Source: Halopseudomonas litoralis
Lineage (GTDB): Bacteria > Pseudomonadota > Gammaproteobacteria > Pseudomonadales > Pseudomonadaceae
DNA length: 64,000 bases
Assembly (NCBI RefSeq): GCF_900105005.1
Contig: NZ_LT629748.1
Coordinates: 2,852,001 to 2,916,000, forward strand
Direction: 5' to 3'
How positions within the stretch are numbered: position 1 is the stretch's first letter; each line of letters opens with the position of its first letter. Below the pieces are notes generated by a model. It searched no databases. It worked only from the letters and a program-made list of their open reading frames with translations, and was not told where the DNA came from. Below are positions 41,333 to 46,290 of this stretch, one piece after another. The position numbers were made by a program, and so were the translations under genes.

Positions 41333-42751
41333 TCAGTCACGCCGCAACCGCGCCATCAGTCGATGTCGCCAGCTGGACTTCTGCTGTTCCTGTGGCGTTG
41401 GCCAGTCCAGTTTCTTGCTTTCACATTGGACTATACCGTTGGCTCCCAGGCGCAAGCGCCAACGCTGGGCCCTTGTGTGTTGCTGGCCCGGTTCGGTGAG
41501 TACCAGCAGCAGGTTATAGTCGTGCTGCTTTTCGATGGCGTGGCCCTCAACTGTGGAAAAGGCTTCCCCATCATCGGCGAGAGTAAACAGGCGGTTACGG
41601 GTAGGCTCTATCAACTCACACAGTGGTTCACAGTCCAGATTCACTCGCTCTTGAATCTCATTCTGCTCCAGCGCCGCCTTATCCAACTGCAAGTGGGTGC
41701 GATAGCAGATGATATGGCGCTCTTCATTGGCCCATTTGCCGGAATGCTCCAATACATCTCGCGGTAGATCAGCCAACTTGTAGTAGTCCAGCCAGACCAA
41801 CTGCTGCGCCATCAGCTGTTTGGTATAGGGCATCAACAGACGGTTTTTCCAACGCGCCCTGCCCTTGCGCAACCAACGGGTGAGCAGGGTGATCAAATCG
41901 TCACGCAACAGATCGCGGACGCCATACACCATGGCAATCCCCAGCAACAGAGTGATGGACAGCTGACTGGCGCTGCGAGCGTTGAACAGCACATAGGTAA
42001 ACAGTCCCATGATCAAGGTGGTGCTCGCTGCCTTGACCAGCTTGCGGGTCCCCGATCCCAGCTCGGTGAGCTTCGAGCGCAGCAGCACAGGATACTCCAG
42101 CAGCCGGTGATACAGGCTCATGCGGTTCCATACCCGGGTTGGCTTGCCACGGAAGTCGGCCAGGTACTCGCGCTCCTTGCGGATCCGATACTCCTCCAGC
42201 AGAAACTCCTCGACTGTCTCACGCAGCTCCGCATCCAGTTCCGAGTAACCCTCCAGCGTCATGCATTCCAGCAGGAACTGCTCGGCGTACCAGGAGAAAT
42301 AGATATCCATCTGCCGGAAATAACGCTGCTGACTGCTCGGCTCGGGTACCGTTCGGCGCAAGCGCTGGGCATAGGTCTCACTCAGACGCAGGGCCCGTGT
42401 TATGGGCTCGGCCGTGGCCACACCGGCGCTCTGTAGCTGCTGACGCAATCGGTCCACCGAGGCTTTGTAGCGGAACAACCAGGAACCGTAGGTAATCTCG
42501 TAATGGGGCGACATCAGCGCGAAGGAGCTGTCCTCCTTGCTGGCACGCTCCTGGGCTGGCAGGCCCAGCAGACCAAAGCGGTGCAACAGGGAGGTGAGAT
42601 AGAACTGCTGCTCGGACATTGTCCAGGCGGCAAAATTGCTCTCGTGGGGCGTGAACAGGTACAGTTCAATCTCGTAGCGGCCCGGCTTCTTGAGCGTGCG
42701 GGTCAGCTGCAGACGGTAATCACCCTTGCGTTTCAGTGAGAACACGGTCAC
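41333..42751 (-). CDS. Conserved-looking hypothetical membrane protein, 472 residues
   Basis: I do not recognise this protein. It begins MTVFSLKRKGDYRLQLTRTLKKPGRYEIELYLF, has a long soluble N-terminal region of about 240 residues rich in charged and aromatic amino acids, then two adjacent hydrophobic segments (about residues 243-262 KAASTTLIMGLFTYVLF and 267-285 LSITLLLGIAMVYGVRDLL), and a basic amphipathic stretch (RWLRKGRARWKNRLLMPYTKQL) before a C-terminal domain of about 150 residues. No catalytic motif is visible. It is monocistronic, between the efflux operon (divergent start 160 bp away on the same strand) and BenE. Length and codon pattern support a real gene. The FTPHESNFAAWTMSEQQFYLTSLLHRFGLLG region looks like an ordered N-terminal domain. 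Confidence 0.75.
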   Translation of the reverse strand: MTVFSLKRKGDYRLQLTRTLKKPGRYEIELYLFTPHESNFAAWTMSEQQFYLTSLLHRFGLLGLPAQERASKEDSSFALMSPHYEITYGSWLFRYKASVDRLRQQLQSAGVATAEPITRALRLSETYAQRLRRTVPEPSSQQRYFRQMDIYFSWYAEQFLLECMTLEGYSELDAELRETVEEFLLEEYRIRKEREYLADFRGKPTRVWNRMSLYHRLLEYPVLLRSKLTELGSGTRKLVKAASTTLIMGLFTYVLFNARSASQLSITLLLGIAMVYGVRDLLRDDLITLLTRWLRKGRARWKNRLLMPYTKQLMAQQLVWLDYYKLADLPRDVLEHSGKWANEERHIICYRTHLQLDKAALEQNEIQERVNLDCEPLCELIEPTRNRLFTLADDGEAFSTVEGHAIEKQHDYNLLLVLTEPGQQHTRAQRWRLRLGANGIVQCESKKLDWPTPQEQQKSSWRHRLMARLRRD

Positions 42752-43029: not shown

Positions 43030-44259
43030 GTGAGTTTCTTCAAGGACCTGTCCCTCTCCTCCTTCAGCGCCGGCTTTGTCGCGGTACTGGTAGGCTTCAC
43101 CAGTTCTGCCGCGCTGGTGTTCCAGGCTGCCCGCGAGCTTGGGGCCACACCGGCCCAGATCGGCTCATGGATGCTGGCGCTCTGCCTGGGTATCGGTCTG
43201 TCCGGCATCTATCTTTCCTGGCGATTCAAGGCGCCGGTAGTCACCGCCTGGTCAACGCCGGGCGCCGCGGTATTGGTCACCGCTGCGTCCAGCGCGAGCC
43301 TTCAGGAAGCCACCGGCGCTTTCATTATCTGTGGACTGCTGATGGCGCTATGCGGTTTCTTCGGCTGGTTCGAACGCATCATGCAGCGCATTCCGCCGGC
43401 AATTGCCGCAGGCATGCTGGCTGGTGTGCTGCTGCGTTTTGGCATGGAGGCCTTCGCCGCACTGGAAACCGCATTCGGCCTGGTATTGCCGATGCTGCTC
43501 ACCTACTTGCTGGCTCGGCGATTGATCCCGCGCTATGCGGTGATAGCGCCTCTGGTGGTCGGTATTGCGGTGGCGGCGACTGCTGGCATGCTGGATTTCA
43601 GTGCATTGAGTTTCACCGTCACCACGCCACAGTGGGTTACGCCGTCTTTCAGCGTGCAGGCACTGATGGGCGTGGCCTTACCCTTGTTCGCTGTGAGCGT
43701 GGCATCGCAGAACCTGCCCGGGCTGGCGGTGCTACGGGCCGCTGGCTACCAGACACCCGCTTCGCCGTTGATCGGCTGGACCGGAATGGCAACCCTGGTG
43801 CTGGCCCCCTTCGGTGCCTTCGGTATCAACCTGGCTGCCATTACCGCAGCCATCTGCACCGGTCCCGAGGCCCATGACGACCCCGGCAAGCGTTATACCG
43901 CTGCGATTGTGTCCGGTATCTTCTATCTGATTGCGGGTATTTTCGGAGCCAGCATCGGTGCATTGTTTCTGGCATTTCCCAAGGAACTGGTGCTGGCCAT
44001 TGCCGGTTTTGCCTTGATCAATACCATCGGCAGCGGGCTCGTCAGCGCACTGCAGGAAGAACGCCACCGCGAAGCGGCGCTGATAACCTTTCTGGTCACC
44101 GCCTCAGGCGTATCGCTGCTGGGAATAGCCTCGGCGTTCTGGGGGATGGTAGCGGGCGCCGGCGCATTGCTTATCCTGCAAGCGCCCGGCCTGCAGAGCC
44201 AGCTCAGACGCAACGGGAAGACGGAGCCAGCCCAGGCTCAATCGACAGAGAAGAGCTGA
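43030..44259 (+). CDS. benE: BenE family benzoate/H+ symporter-like transporter
   Basis: 409 residues with about twelve membrane helices and the nucleobase-transporter-like fold of BenE: FSAGFVAVLVGFTSSAALVFQAARELGATPAQI at the start, GTTPALVTAWSTPGAAVL-like central motif (VTAWSTPGAAVLVTAA), IPPAIAAGMLAGVLLRFG, and ASQNLPGLAVLRAAGY. The start is GTG 43030 within GAATGTGAG; no upstream ATG in frame gives a better N-terminus. No benzoate-catabolic genes are nearby, so the substrate is unconfirmed. A 278-bp space before it holds nothing else I can support. Confidence 0.88.
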   Translation: MSFFKDLSLSSFSAGFVAVLVGFTSSAALVFQAARELGATPAQIGSWMLALCLGIGLSGIYLSWRFKAPVVTAWSTPGAAVLVTAASSASLQEATGAFIICGLLMALCGFFGWFERIMQRIPPAIAAGMLAGVLLRFGMEAFAALETAFGLVLPMLLTYLLARRLIPRYAVIAPLVVGIAVAATAGMLDFSALSFTVTTPQWVTPSFSVQALMGVALPLFAVSVASQNLPGLAVLRAAGYQTPASPLIGWTGMATLVLAPFGAFGINLAAITAAICTGPEAHDDPGKRYTAAIVSGIFYLIAGIFGASIGALFLAFPKELVLAIAGFALINTIGSGLVSALQEERHREAALITFLVTASGVSLLGIASAFWGMVAGAGALLILQAPGLQSQLRRNGKTEPAQAQSTEKS

Positions 44260-44288: not shown

Positions 44289-44310
44289 AAAAAACCCCGC
44301 CGAGGCGGGG
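44289..44310 (-). terminator. Rho-independent terminator of the Rsm-like RNA
   Basis: On the minus strand: CCCCGCC-TC-GGCGGGG followed by TTTTTT (stem 44310-44295, U-run 44294-44289). It closes the small RNA and could also end acyl-CoA dehydrogenase transcripts, as I see no other terminator after that gene. Confidence 0.9.
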
Positions 44311-44416
44311 CTTCGCAAAATAACGTCCTGATCATCATCCTTAACGAGAGCACTTCCTGTAGCTTGTTCCCTGCTCCCTATTGGTGTTTCTCCGCTTCCT
44401 GCGATGCATCCTTGCG
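44289..44416 (-). ncRNA. RsmY/RsmZ/RsmX-type regulatory small RNA
   Basis: This roughly 128-nt minus-strand segment contains eight GGA motifs (TCC on plus at 44326, 44338, 44355, 44368, 44375, 44391, 44397 and 44409), in contexts such as CAAGGATG, GCAGGAAGC, AGGGAACA, ACAGGAAG, TAAGGATG and TCAGGACG, and ends in a GC-rich terminator with six U. This is the hallmark of RNAs that sequester RsmA/CsrA proteins. A -10-like TACTAT (44428-44423) and a palindromic GacA-type box centred about 65 bp upstream of the inferred start at about 44416 complete the expected architecture. No protein frame fits. I cannot say whether it is the RsmX, RsmY or RsmZ orthologue; GCAGGAAGC is like RsmY. Confidence 0.85.
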
Positions 44417-44472
44417 AAACCAATAGTACGTAGATGGTATGGATCGGCCCATAGGCTATTACCGCCACGCCT

Positions 44473-44490
44473 TGTAGGCCTTCTCCTACA
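44473..44490 (-). promoter_or_regulatory. GacA upstream activating sequence (GacS/GacA box)
   Basis: TGTAGG-N6-CCTACA on both strands (44473-44490), a perfect 6+6 palindrome with 6-base spacer, fits the TGTAAG-N6-CTTACA box in front of rsm RNA genes, with one symmetrical substitution per arm. Its centre is about 65 bp upstream of the inferred RNA start, the spacing expected. It lies 15 bp after the acyl-CoA dehydrogenase stop. Confidence 0.8.
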
Positions 44491-44505: not shown

Positions 44506-46290
44506 TCAGAACTGAGCCGCCTCCAACTCAAACAGCGACTCACTACCCGCGCGCACCGCCGCGCTCAGCGACTGGACTCTCGGCAGCAAACGCTTGAAAT
44601 AGAAGCGAGCGGTGGCCAGCTTGGCCTGGTAGAAACCATCCCCGTCCTGCTCCACAGCCAGCGCGGCCTTGGCCATGCGTGCCCACATATAGCCATAGGC
44701 GGTATAACCGAAGGTATGCAGATATTCCACCGACGCAGCGCCGACTTCATTGGGGTTGGCCTTGCTGCTTTCGATGACCTGAGCCGTCAGCTGCTTGAGG
44801 TTTTCCAGTGCGGCCTGCAACGGCTGAACAAACTCGTCCATGTCAGCTGCGCCATTGTCAGCAATGAAGTCCTCGATTTCATCAGCGAACACCTTGAAGA
44901 ACGCGCCGCCATTGGCAACGGTCTTGCGCCCCATCAGATCCAGCGCCTGAATACCGTTGGTGCCTTCGTAGATCTGCGCAATACGCACATCCCGCACCAG
45001 TTGCTCCTGACCCCACTCGCGAATGTAGCCATGCCCGCCGAGCACCTGCTGGCCGTGTACGCAGTTTTCGAAGCCCACGTCGGTGAAGAAGGCCTTGGCC
45101 ACTGGCGTCAGCAGTGCAACCAGATCTTCGCCCTTCTTCTTGATCTGCTCATCTTCAGCAAACTTGCTGATATCCAGCTGCATGCCGACATAGGTCGAGA
45201 AGGCGCGGCTGCCTTCGATCATGGCCTTCATGGTCAGCAGCATGCGCCGCACGTCCGGGTGCACTATGATCGGGTCGGCGGCCTTGTCCGGCTGTATCGC
45301 ACCGGTCGGCGCACGGCTCTGGATGCGTTCACGCGCATAGGCGACAGCGGTCTGGTAGGAGGCTTCGCCGCAACCGATGCCCTGGATGCCGATGGACAGG
45401 CGCTCGTAGTTCATCATGGTGAACATGGCGTTCAGGCCCTTGTTCACTTCGCCGATCAGATAGCCCTTGGCACCGTCGAAGTTCATCACACAGGTGGCCG
45501 AGCCCTTGATACCCATCTTGTGTTCGATCGAGCCGCAGCTCAGGGTATTGCGCTCGCCCAGACTGCCGTCTTCGCTGACCAGGAACTTGGGCACCAGGAA
45601 CAGGGAAATACCCTTGGGGCCGGCCGGTGCGTCGGGCAGCTTGGCCAGAACCAGGTGAATGATGTTTTCGGTCAGGTCATGCTCACCGCCGGTAATGAAG
45701 ATCTTGGTACCGGTAACGGCATAACTGCCATCGGCCTCGGGTACAGCCTTGGTGCGGATGATGCCCAGGTCGGTGCCGGCATGCGGCTCGGTCAGGCACA
45801 TGGTGCCAGCCCAGGTGCCGGCGTACATGTTCGGCAGGTACTTTTGCTTGAGCTCTTCGCTGCCATGGGCGTCCAGCGCCAGGGTGCTGCCGGCGGTCAG
45901 GGCGATATACAGGGCAAAGCTGCTGTTGGCGCCGTAGATCATTTCCTCGACCTGCACACCGAGGGTCTTGGGCATGCCCAGTCCACCGTATTCGGCATTA
46001 CCTGCCAGCCCTACCCAGCCGCCTTCGGCATAAGTGCTATAGGCTTCCTTGAAGCCGGCAGGAGTGGTGACTTCGCCGTTGTTCCACACCGCGCCTTCTT
46101 CGTCACCGTTGCGATTCAGTGGCGCTATGGTCTGCGAGGTGATCTTGGCGGCTTCCTCCAGCATGGCATCAGCGGTTTCAGCATCGATGGCGCCATTCAG
46201 GCCGGGCAGGCTCTGCCACAGCTGGTCGGCTGCAAAGGTTTCATTGAGAACGAAACGGATGTCACGCAGGGGGGCTTGGTACTCGGCCAT
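44506..46290 (-). CDS. Acyl-CoA dehydrogenase (FadE-like, 594 aa)
   Basis: A long-form FAD acyl-CoA dehydrogenase: N-terminal helical domain (PLRDIRFVLNETF, typical of this subfamily), FAD/substrate beta domain with TMCLTEPHAGTDLGIIRTKA and KIFITGGEHDL, then the C-terminal helical domain with the active-site region and FGGHGYIREWGQEQLVRDVRIAQIYEGTNGIQALDL (here VLGGHGY). An extra C-terminal domain extends it to about 600 residues. It performs the first beta-oxidation step. It strongly resembles the paralogue at 46964-48754; the pair recalls the PA0506/PA0508 genes of P. aeruginosa. Chain-length specificity cannot be read. A GacA box and small RNA follow closely. Confidence 0.92.
   Translation of the reverse strand: MAEYQAPLRDIRFVLNETFAADQLWQSLPGLNGAIDAETADAMLEEAAKITSQTIAPLNRNGDEEGAVWNNGEVTTPAGFKEAYSTYAEGGWVGLAGNAEYGGLGMPKTLGVQVEEMIYGANSSFALYIALTAGSTLALDAHGSEELKQKYLPNMYAGTWAGTMCLTEPHAGTDLGIIRTKAVPEADGSYAVTGTKIFITGGEHDLTENIIHLVLAKLPDAPAGPKGISLFLVPKFLVSEDGSLGERNTLSCGSIEHKMGIKGSATCVMNFDGAKGYLIGEVNKGLNAMFTMMNYERLSIGIQGIGCGEASYQTAVAYARERIQSRAPTGAIQPDKAADPIIVHPDVRRMLLTMKAMIEGSRAFSTYVGMQLDISKFAEDEQIKKKGEDLVALLTPVAKAFFTDVGFENCVHGQQVLGGHGYIREWGQEQLVRDVRIAQIYEGTNGIQALDLMGRKTVANGGAFFKVFADEIEDFIADNGAADMDEFVQPLQAALENLKQLTAQVIESSKANPNEVGAASVEYLHTFGYTAYGYMWARMAKAALAVEQDGDGFYQAKLATARFYFKRLLPRVQSLSAAVRAGSESLFELEAAQF

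Follow-up and report, generated by a model that had tools for sequence, protein, structure and literature searches.

A predicted RsmY small RNA gene with a symmetric GacA-type box in Halopseudomonas litoralis

The rsmY locus

The locus described here lies within a stretch of 64,000 nucleotides from the genome of Halopseudomonas litoralis (contig NZ_LT629748.1), which we call the window. An acyl-CoA dehydrogenase (ACAD) gene (44506..46290, minus strand; Pfam Acyl-CoA_dh_N/M/1/C over their cut-offs) is located just upstream of a predicted RsmY small RNA on the same strand (44289..44416), and a BenE-family benzoate transporter gene on the plus strand (43030..44259; TIGR00843 446 bits, cut-off 203.4; PF03594) is the convergent neighbor. 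Read along the minus strand, the ACAD stop codon is followed by TGTAGGAGAAGGCCTACA at 44490-44473, TACTAT at 44428-44423, eight GGA motifs, and an intrinsic terminator with a GC stem and six U. The first of these elements, TGTAGG-N6-CCTACA, is a palindromic and symmetric variant of the GacA-type box TGTAAG-N6-CTTACA, keeping 10 of its 12 positions with one change per half, and it stands at the expected distance. TACTAT is a -10-like element, and similar elements were recognized by eye on the alignment of relatives. The start of the RNA was placed near 44416 from the position of this element, and given that start the box is centered ~65 bp upstream, in agreement with the activator box near -65 proposed in the original prediction. 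The first bases of the eight GGA are 44411, 44399, 44393, 44377, 44370, 44357, 44340, and 44328. The terminator (44289..44311) belongs to the Rfam match and is composed of the stem GCCCCGCCTCGGCGGGG at 44311-44295 and six T that run to 44289. The predicted palindrome, TACTAT, eight GGA, and terminator were all found at their minus-strand places.

A covariance search of the whole window, which had been proposed as the check on an Rsm-type RNA, returned the RsmY family (RF00195) at 44413-44291 on the minus strand with 64.0 bits against a gathering score of 57, E = 7.5e-13, and alignment to model positions 1-121 of 121. Besides RsmY, the sole gathering-score match within the window is one tRNA; CsrB and CsrC gave none. 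At the same locus RsmX (RF02144) reached 28.5 bits, below its gathering score of 56, and RsmZ (PrrB_RsmZ, RF00166) was absent among the five matches listed with E up to 10. The likeness to the GacA-controlled, RsmA-titrating RsmY of Pseudomonas extends to the full-length match, the GGA motifs, the terminator, and the GacA-type box, and the difference lies in the spelling of that box, TGTAGG/CCTACA instead of TGTAAG/CTTACA. From its sequence, we read the locus at 44413-44291 as an ordinary RsmY gene with a modest promoter variant.

Every part of this layout is short by itself, and it can be asked if the motifs came together by chance. The pattern TGTARG-N6-CYTACA has one exact match in the window against 0.01 expected from shuffles, and the rsmY box is its sole exact match in the 3,987,842-base genome. 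Sites with one mismatch number 15 genome-wide and 11 for a control pattern, so a near-match box alone means little, and to this extent the counts favor chance. The Rfam E-value, the low expectation for an exact box, and the conservation of all parts across the genus argue the other way, and the Rfam match together with the conservation in relatives refutes a chance assembly, whose probability we put at practically nil. The minus strand of the window carries a mean of 1.8 GGA per 125-nt stretch, and 8 or more occur at two places, rsmY (8) and an open reading frame (ORF) of 472 aa at 41333-42751 (10 per 125 nt). The latter, on the minus strand near an efflux-type outer membrane gene, holds the densest GGA stretch of the window, and neither Pfam nor NCBIfam matched it at E 0.001.

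Neighboring genes and alternative readings

The acyl-CoA dehydrogenase named in the original prediction as the neighbor is borne out by its Pfam domains, and the box begins 16 bp past its stop codon. In 32 of the 36 congeners with rsmY the end of the ACAD match is at most 100 bp from the box; this distance is 1207 bp in G002, G006, and G033, and G021 has no ACAD match in the examined stretch around rsmY. Many rsmY loci of Pseudomonas share the ACAD neighbor as well. From the named genomes the best 80 ACAD loci were taken, one of which had too little sequence, and among the 79 scanned a box of at least 10/12 was found within 400 bp past ACAD in 52 and was missing in 27, compared with 0/79 in a control scan inside the ACAD gene. 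Since the box is present at 52/79 and absent at 27/79, and adjacency holds in 32/36 congeners, the ACAD-rsmY neighborhood is widespread but not universal. This common adjacency on one strand, with so short a gap, would fit an RNA that arises chiefly as a 3′ by-product of ACAD mRNA, generated by read-through or processing and lacking a promoter of its own. However, the box and the -10-like element keep a constant distance to the RNA in relatives, and both are also present in the three genomes where ACAD ends 1207 bp away, which makes a by-product very improbable.

A second alternative is that the stretch encodes a small protein, as a 76-aa ORF at 44468-44238 on the minus strand is open in the source genome. 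In the seven clade relatives checked, however, this frame is broken by shifts or stops or has no start; the ORF is refuted as a conserved gene, and a protein-coding reading is exceedingly improbable.

Predicted RNA structure

Two hairpins that expose GGA can be drawn in the RsmY RNA. One is CGC-AGGAA-GCG at 44393..44403 (minus strand), with GGA in the loop, invariant in 8/8 clade members; the other, at 44350..44363 (minus strand), carries AGGA in the loop, and all its cells are paired in the 8 clade members. On the clade alignment these hairpins are 95% paired, and in the second one both sides have changed at 2/5 pairs, one of which is represented by letters in just two sequences. Of 500 shuffles, 76 reached the covariation of the complete structure. 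Neither the single-sequence prediction nor RNAalifold chose the CGC-AGGAA-GCG pairing, and the pairs that RNAalifold proposed were largely others, their covariation term amounting to just -0.11. The energy of the predicted fold has a z-score of -2.0, 6/200 shuffles folding at least as well. The original prediction had asked how many GGA lie in hairpin loops, and the answer is mixed: GGA are less paired on average (mean unpaired probability 0.55, other triplets 0.41), but 3 of the 8 are inside stems in the minimum-energy fold. With shuffles matching the covariation and RNAalifold choosing largely different pairs, structure was rejected as strong evidence; it is therefore weak support, and the RsmY family match is the main evidence.

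Conservation and variation of the GacA box

Ninety-six genomes including the source were searched; an RsmY match at E ≤0.001 was obtained in 63 and a match over the cut-off in 37, with 0/14 control genomes over the cut-off. Among the 37 Halopseudomonas genomes searched, box and rsmY RNA were found in 36, each box matching at least 9/12 positions, and G008 is the sole one without an RsmY match. The box occupies the same place in relatives, and its distance to the RNA is kept in the short-form relatives; across the genus the size of rsmY ranges from ~115 to 510 nt.

The spelling of the box separates the source clade from the rest of the genus. Outside the clade the left half is TGTAAG in 27/28 rsmY loci, the exception being TGTAGG in G019, whereas TGTAAG occurs in 0/8 loci of the clade, which show TGTAGG, CGTAGG, GGTAGG, and TGTACG, two each. 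The right halves in the clade are CTTACA (5), CCTACA (2), and CGTACA (1), and the complete palindrome TGTAGG/CCTACA is present at rsmY in the source and in G005. Two congeners, G013 and G030, also carry it at rsmZ, in the position of the GacA box. RsmZ is the same kind of RNA but a separate family, and the two RsmZ genes of the source genome lie elsewhere, their box being at about -172 relative to the model start, compared with -68 at rsmY. The rsmZ box of the genus ends in CCTACA: of 37 copies counted, after one G004 copy lacking upstream sequence was dropped, 27 are outside the clade, and 25 of them have this right half, one has CCTACG, and that of G027 has too little upstream sequence. In the clade CCTACA is found in 0/10 copies, which read GCTATN (8), ACTATG (1), and GTCATG (1).

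A third half-site 23 bp past the start of the first was seen at rsmZ, spelled TGTAAG in 15/37 and CGTAAG in 8/37 copies (e.g., L053 1320-1350). On average it matches at 5.1/6 positions, whereas the corresponding offset of 37 rsmY loci gives 2.6. It resembles the csrB arrangement of E. coli, where TGTAGGAGA is reported 5 bp past the repeat (PMC4682653), and it does not occur at rsmY.

The original prediction took the symmetric change of the box for a functional variant and not for decay. The recurrence of the palindrome as the rsmZ box of G013 and G030 makes this probable on sequence grounds, and the claim is supported in part; however, the left half-site is non-canonical in 8/8 clade rsmY loci, so some relaxation is real. 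One could go further and suppose that rsmY is genuine but its box is decaying, with weak GacA control and the two tandem rsmZ genes carrying the load. The four left-half spellings in the clade and the second RsmZ gene of the source genome would suit such a scenario. On the other hand, besides the palindrome at rsmZ in G013 and G030, TGTAGG and CCTACA each occur, one without the other, in the rsmY box of other species, the distance is constant within the clade, and the rsmZ boxes of the clade are altered too, so that rsmZ is not a better-preserved fallback. We consider decay quite improbable, and a probable working variant remains our reading of the box.

Related spellings have been described in other bacteria. 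In P. brassicacearum the box TATAGC...CTTACA is reported before the working Rsm RNAs rsmX-1 and rsmX-2 (PMC7911923); as described there, these genes belong to the rsmX family but have in common with the source a divergent left half and duplication of an Rsm RNA gene. The half-site change by itself is therefore not new. A TGTAGG/CTTACA box upstream of csrA1 is reported in Marinomonas (PMC8523701).

GacA and the altered box

The unusual spelling, judged by the sequences compared, belongs to a wider change in the species group of the source. In GacA the motif KL(C/H)LSPKTVNTYRYR reads His instead of Cys in 9 of the 36 genomes examined, which are exactly the clade with the changed box (support 0.999; FastTree on ACAD and GacA, some species having only one of the two proteins). 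It is conceivable that the DNA recognition of GacA shifted in this H. bauzanensis clade and that the altered regulator is re-matched by the symmetric box; this would be a modest example of co-change between a regulator and its site at a global switch. The exchanged residue immediately precedes the recognition helix, the LSPKTVNTYRYR that follows the residue is the same in 36/36 GacA, and the half-site change and the Cys-to-His exchange are one event on the tree. Because it is a single evolutionary event the co-change is an association only; as an established fact it was rejected, and we hold the re-matching as tentative and on balance unlikely.

The Gac/Rsm circuit

GacA is described as activating the transcription of rsmX, rsmY, and rsmZ, the RNAs of which sequester RsmA-type repressors through their GGA motifs (PMC2375449). 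The genome of H. litoralis possesses one GacA gene (294.7 bits, cut-off 280), one GacS/BarA-like kinase (805 bits, below the curated 890), and two genes of the CsrA/RsmA family (89.2 and 58.3 bits, cut-off 27). The check for other rsm RNAs disclosed two RsmZ genes in tandem, at G000:C1:487927-488060 (52.7 bits) and 488333-488464 (44.1 bits; cut-off 44). Each gene of this tandem (487927-488464) has its own upstream element, ~270 bp apart. Over 58 genomes, two RsmZ matches are listed only for the source and for G004, and the pair of G004 is at contig ends. A genome search with RsmX gave nothing over the cut-off; among the 19 matches listed, one is rsmY itself, and three others (38.4, 32.7, and 29.7 bits) were rejected as candidates, each being terminator-ended with 1-2 GGA and a box never above 8/12. 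The 38.4-bit match overlaps the end of a long ORF and falls at the same place as a weak RsmY match (G000:C1:1174512, 24.6 bits).

The sequence family, the anatomy, the conservation, and the presence of the partner genes are established here, and together the full-length match, the box distance kept in short-form relatives, and the Gac/Rsm partners uphold the predicted Rsm-type small RNA. Transcription, GacA dependence, and RsmA binding are expected by analogy with the RsmY family. Phosphorylated GacA would bind the 18-bp box ~65 bp upstream and activate the promoter with its -10 element TACTAT; a non-coding RNA of ~125 nt would then be produced, ending at the GC-stem terminator, and its GGA motifs would bind and titrate RsmA/CsrA proteins, freeing their target mRNAs. 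The explanation that we favor, with a probability of about 95%, is thus a putative rsmY gene that is GacA-activated and RsmA/CsrA-titrating, the symmetric box most likely being a working variant. E. coli CsrB and CsrC are likewise GGA-rich decoys under a GacA-family regulator acting at an 18-nt inverted repeat, but as described they are larger RNAs, and the csrB repeat is centered near -182 (PMC4682653).

Enlarged RsmY genes and significance

The RsmY of 7 of the 36 congeners is enlarged, spanning 192 to 510 nt and holding 11 to 36 GGA, where length is counted from 66 bp past the box center up to where the model match ends. The largest has 510 nt and 36 GGA (L079 2083-2592, minus strand), and it is followed by genes of 432 nt and 28 GGA (L078 1765-2196, plus), 352 nt and 22 GGA (L076 1818-2169, plus), 282 nt and 18 GGA (L073 2046-2327, minus), 267 nt and 18 GGA (L077 2027-2293, minus), 193 nt and 11 GGA (L072 1895-2087, plus), and 192 nt and 11 GGA (L074 2006-2197, plus). 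The three largest contain tandem units of ~80 nt. In the largest, 13/36 GGA are closed by a stem of 5 pairs or more, whereas 300 shuffles averaged 2.6 such GGA and never exceeded 8, a contrast that is overstated because the repeats are not independent. Published counts give E. coli CsrB 22 GGA and Pf1 25 (PMC11882849). In G052, of another genus of the family, a stretch of 336 nt from box to terminator with 21 GGA and a TGTAGG/CTTACA box was seen (L029 1296-1631, plus strand), which is possibly a separate enlargement.

A literature search by title found no paper about such enlarged RsmY, and a search for rsmY with Halopseudomonas or pertucinogena found none in the literature covered. The RsmY family is already known from related bacteria, and what is new is its member in Halopseudomonas, in which the Gac/Rsm switch is thereby placed. 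In this genus the GacA-box spellings and the RsmY sizes form natural series, which would make binding specificity and sponge capacity testable on orthologues.
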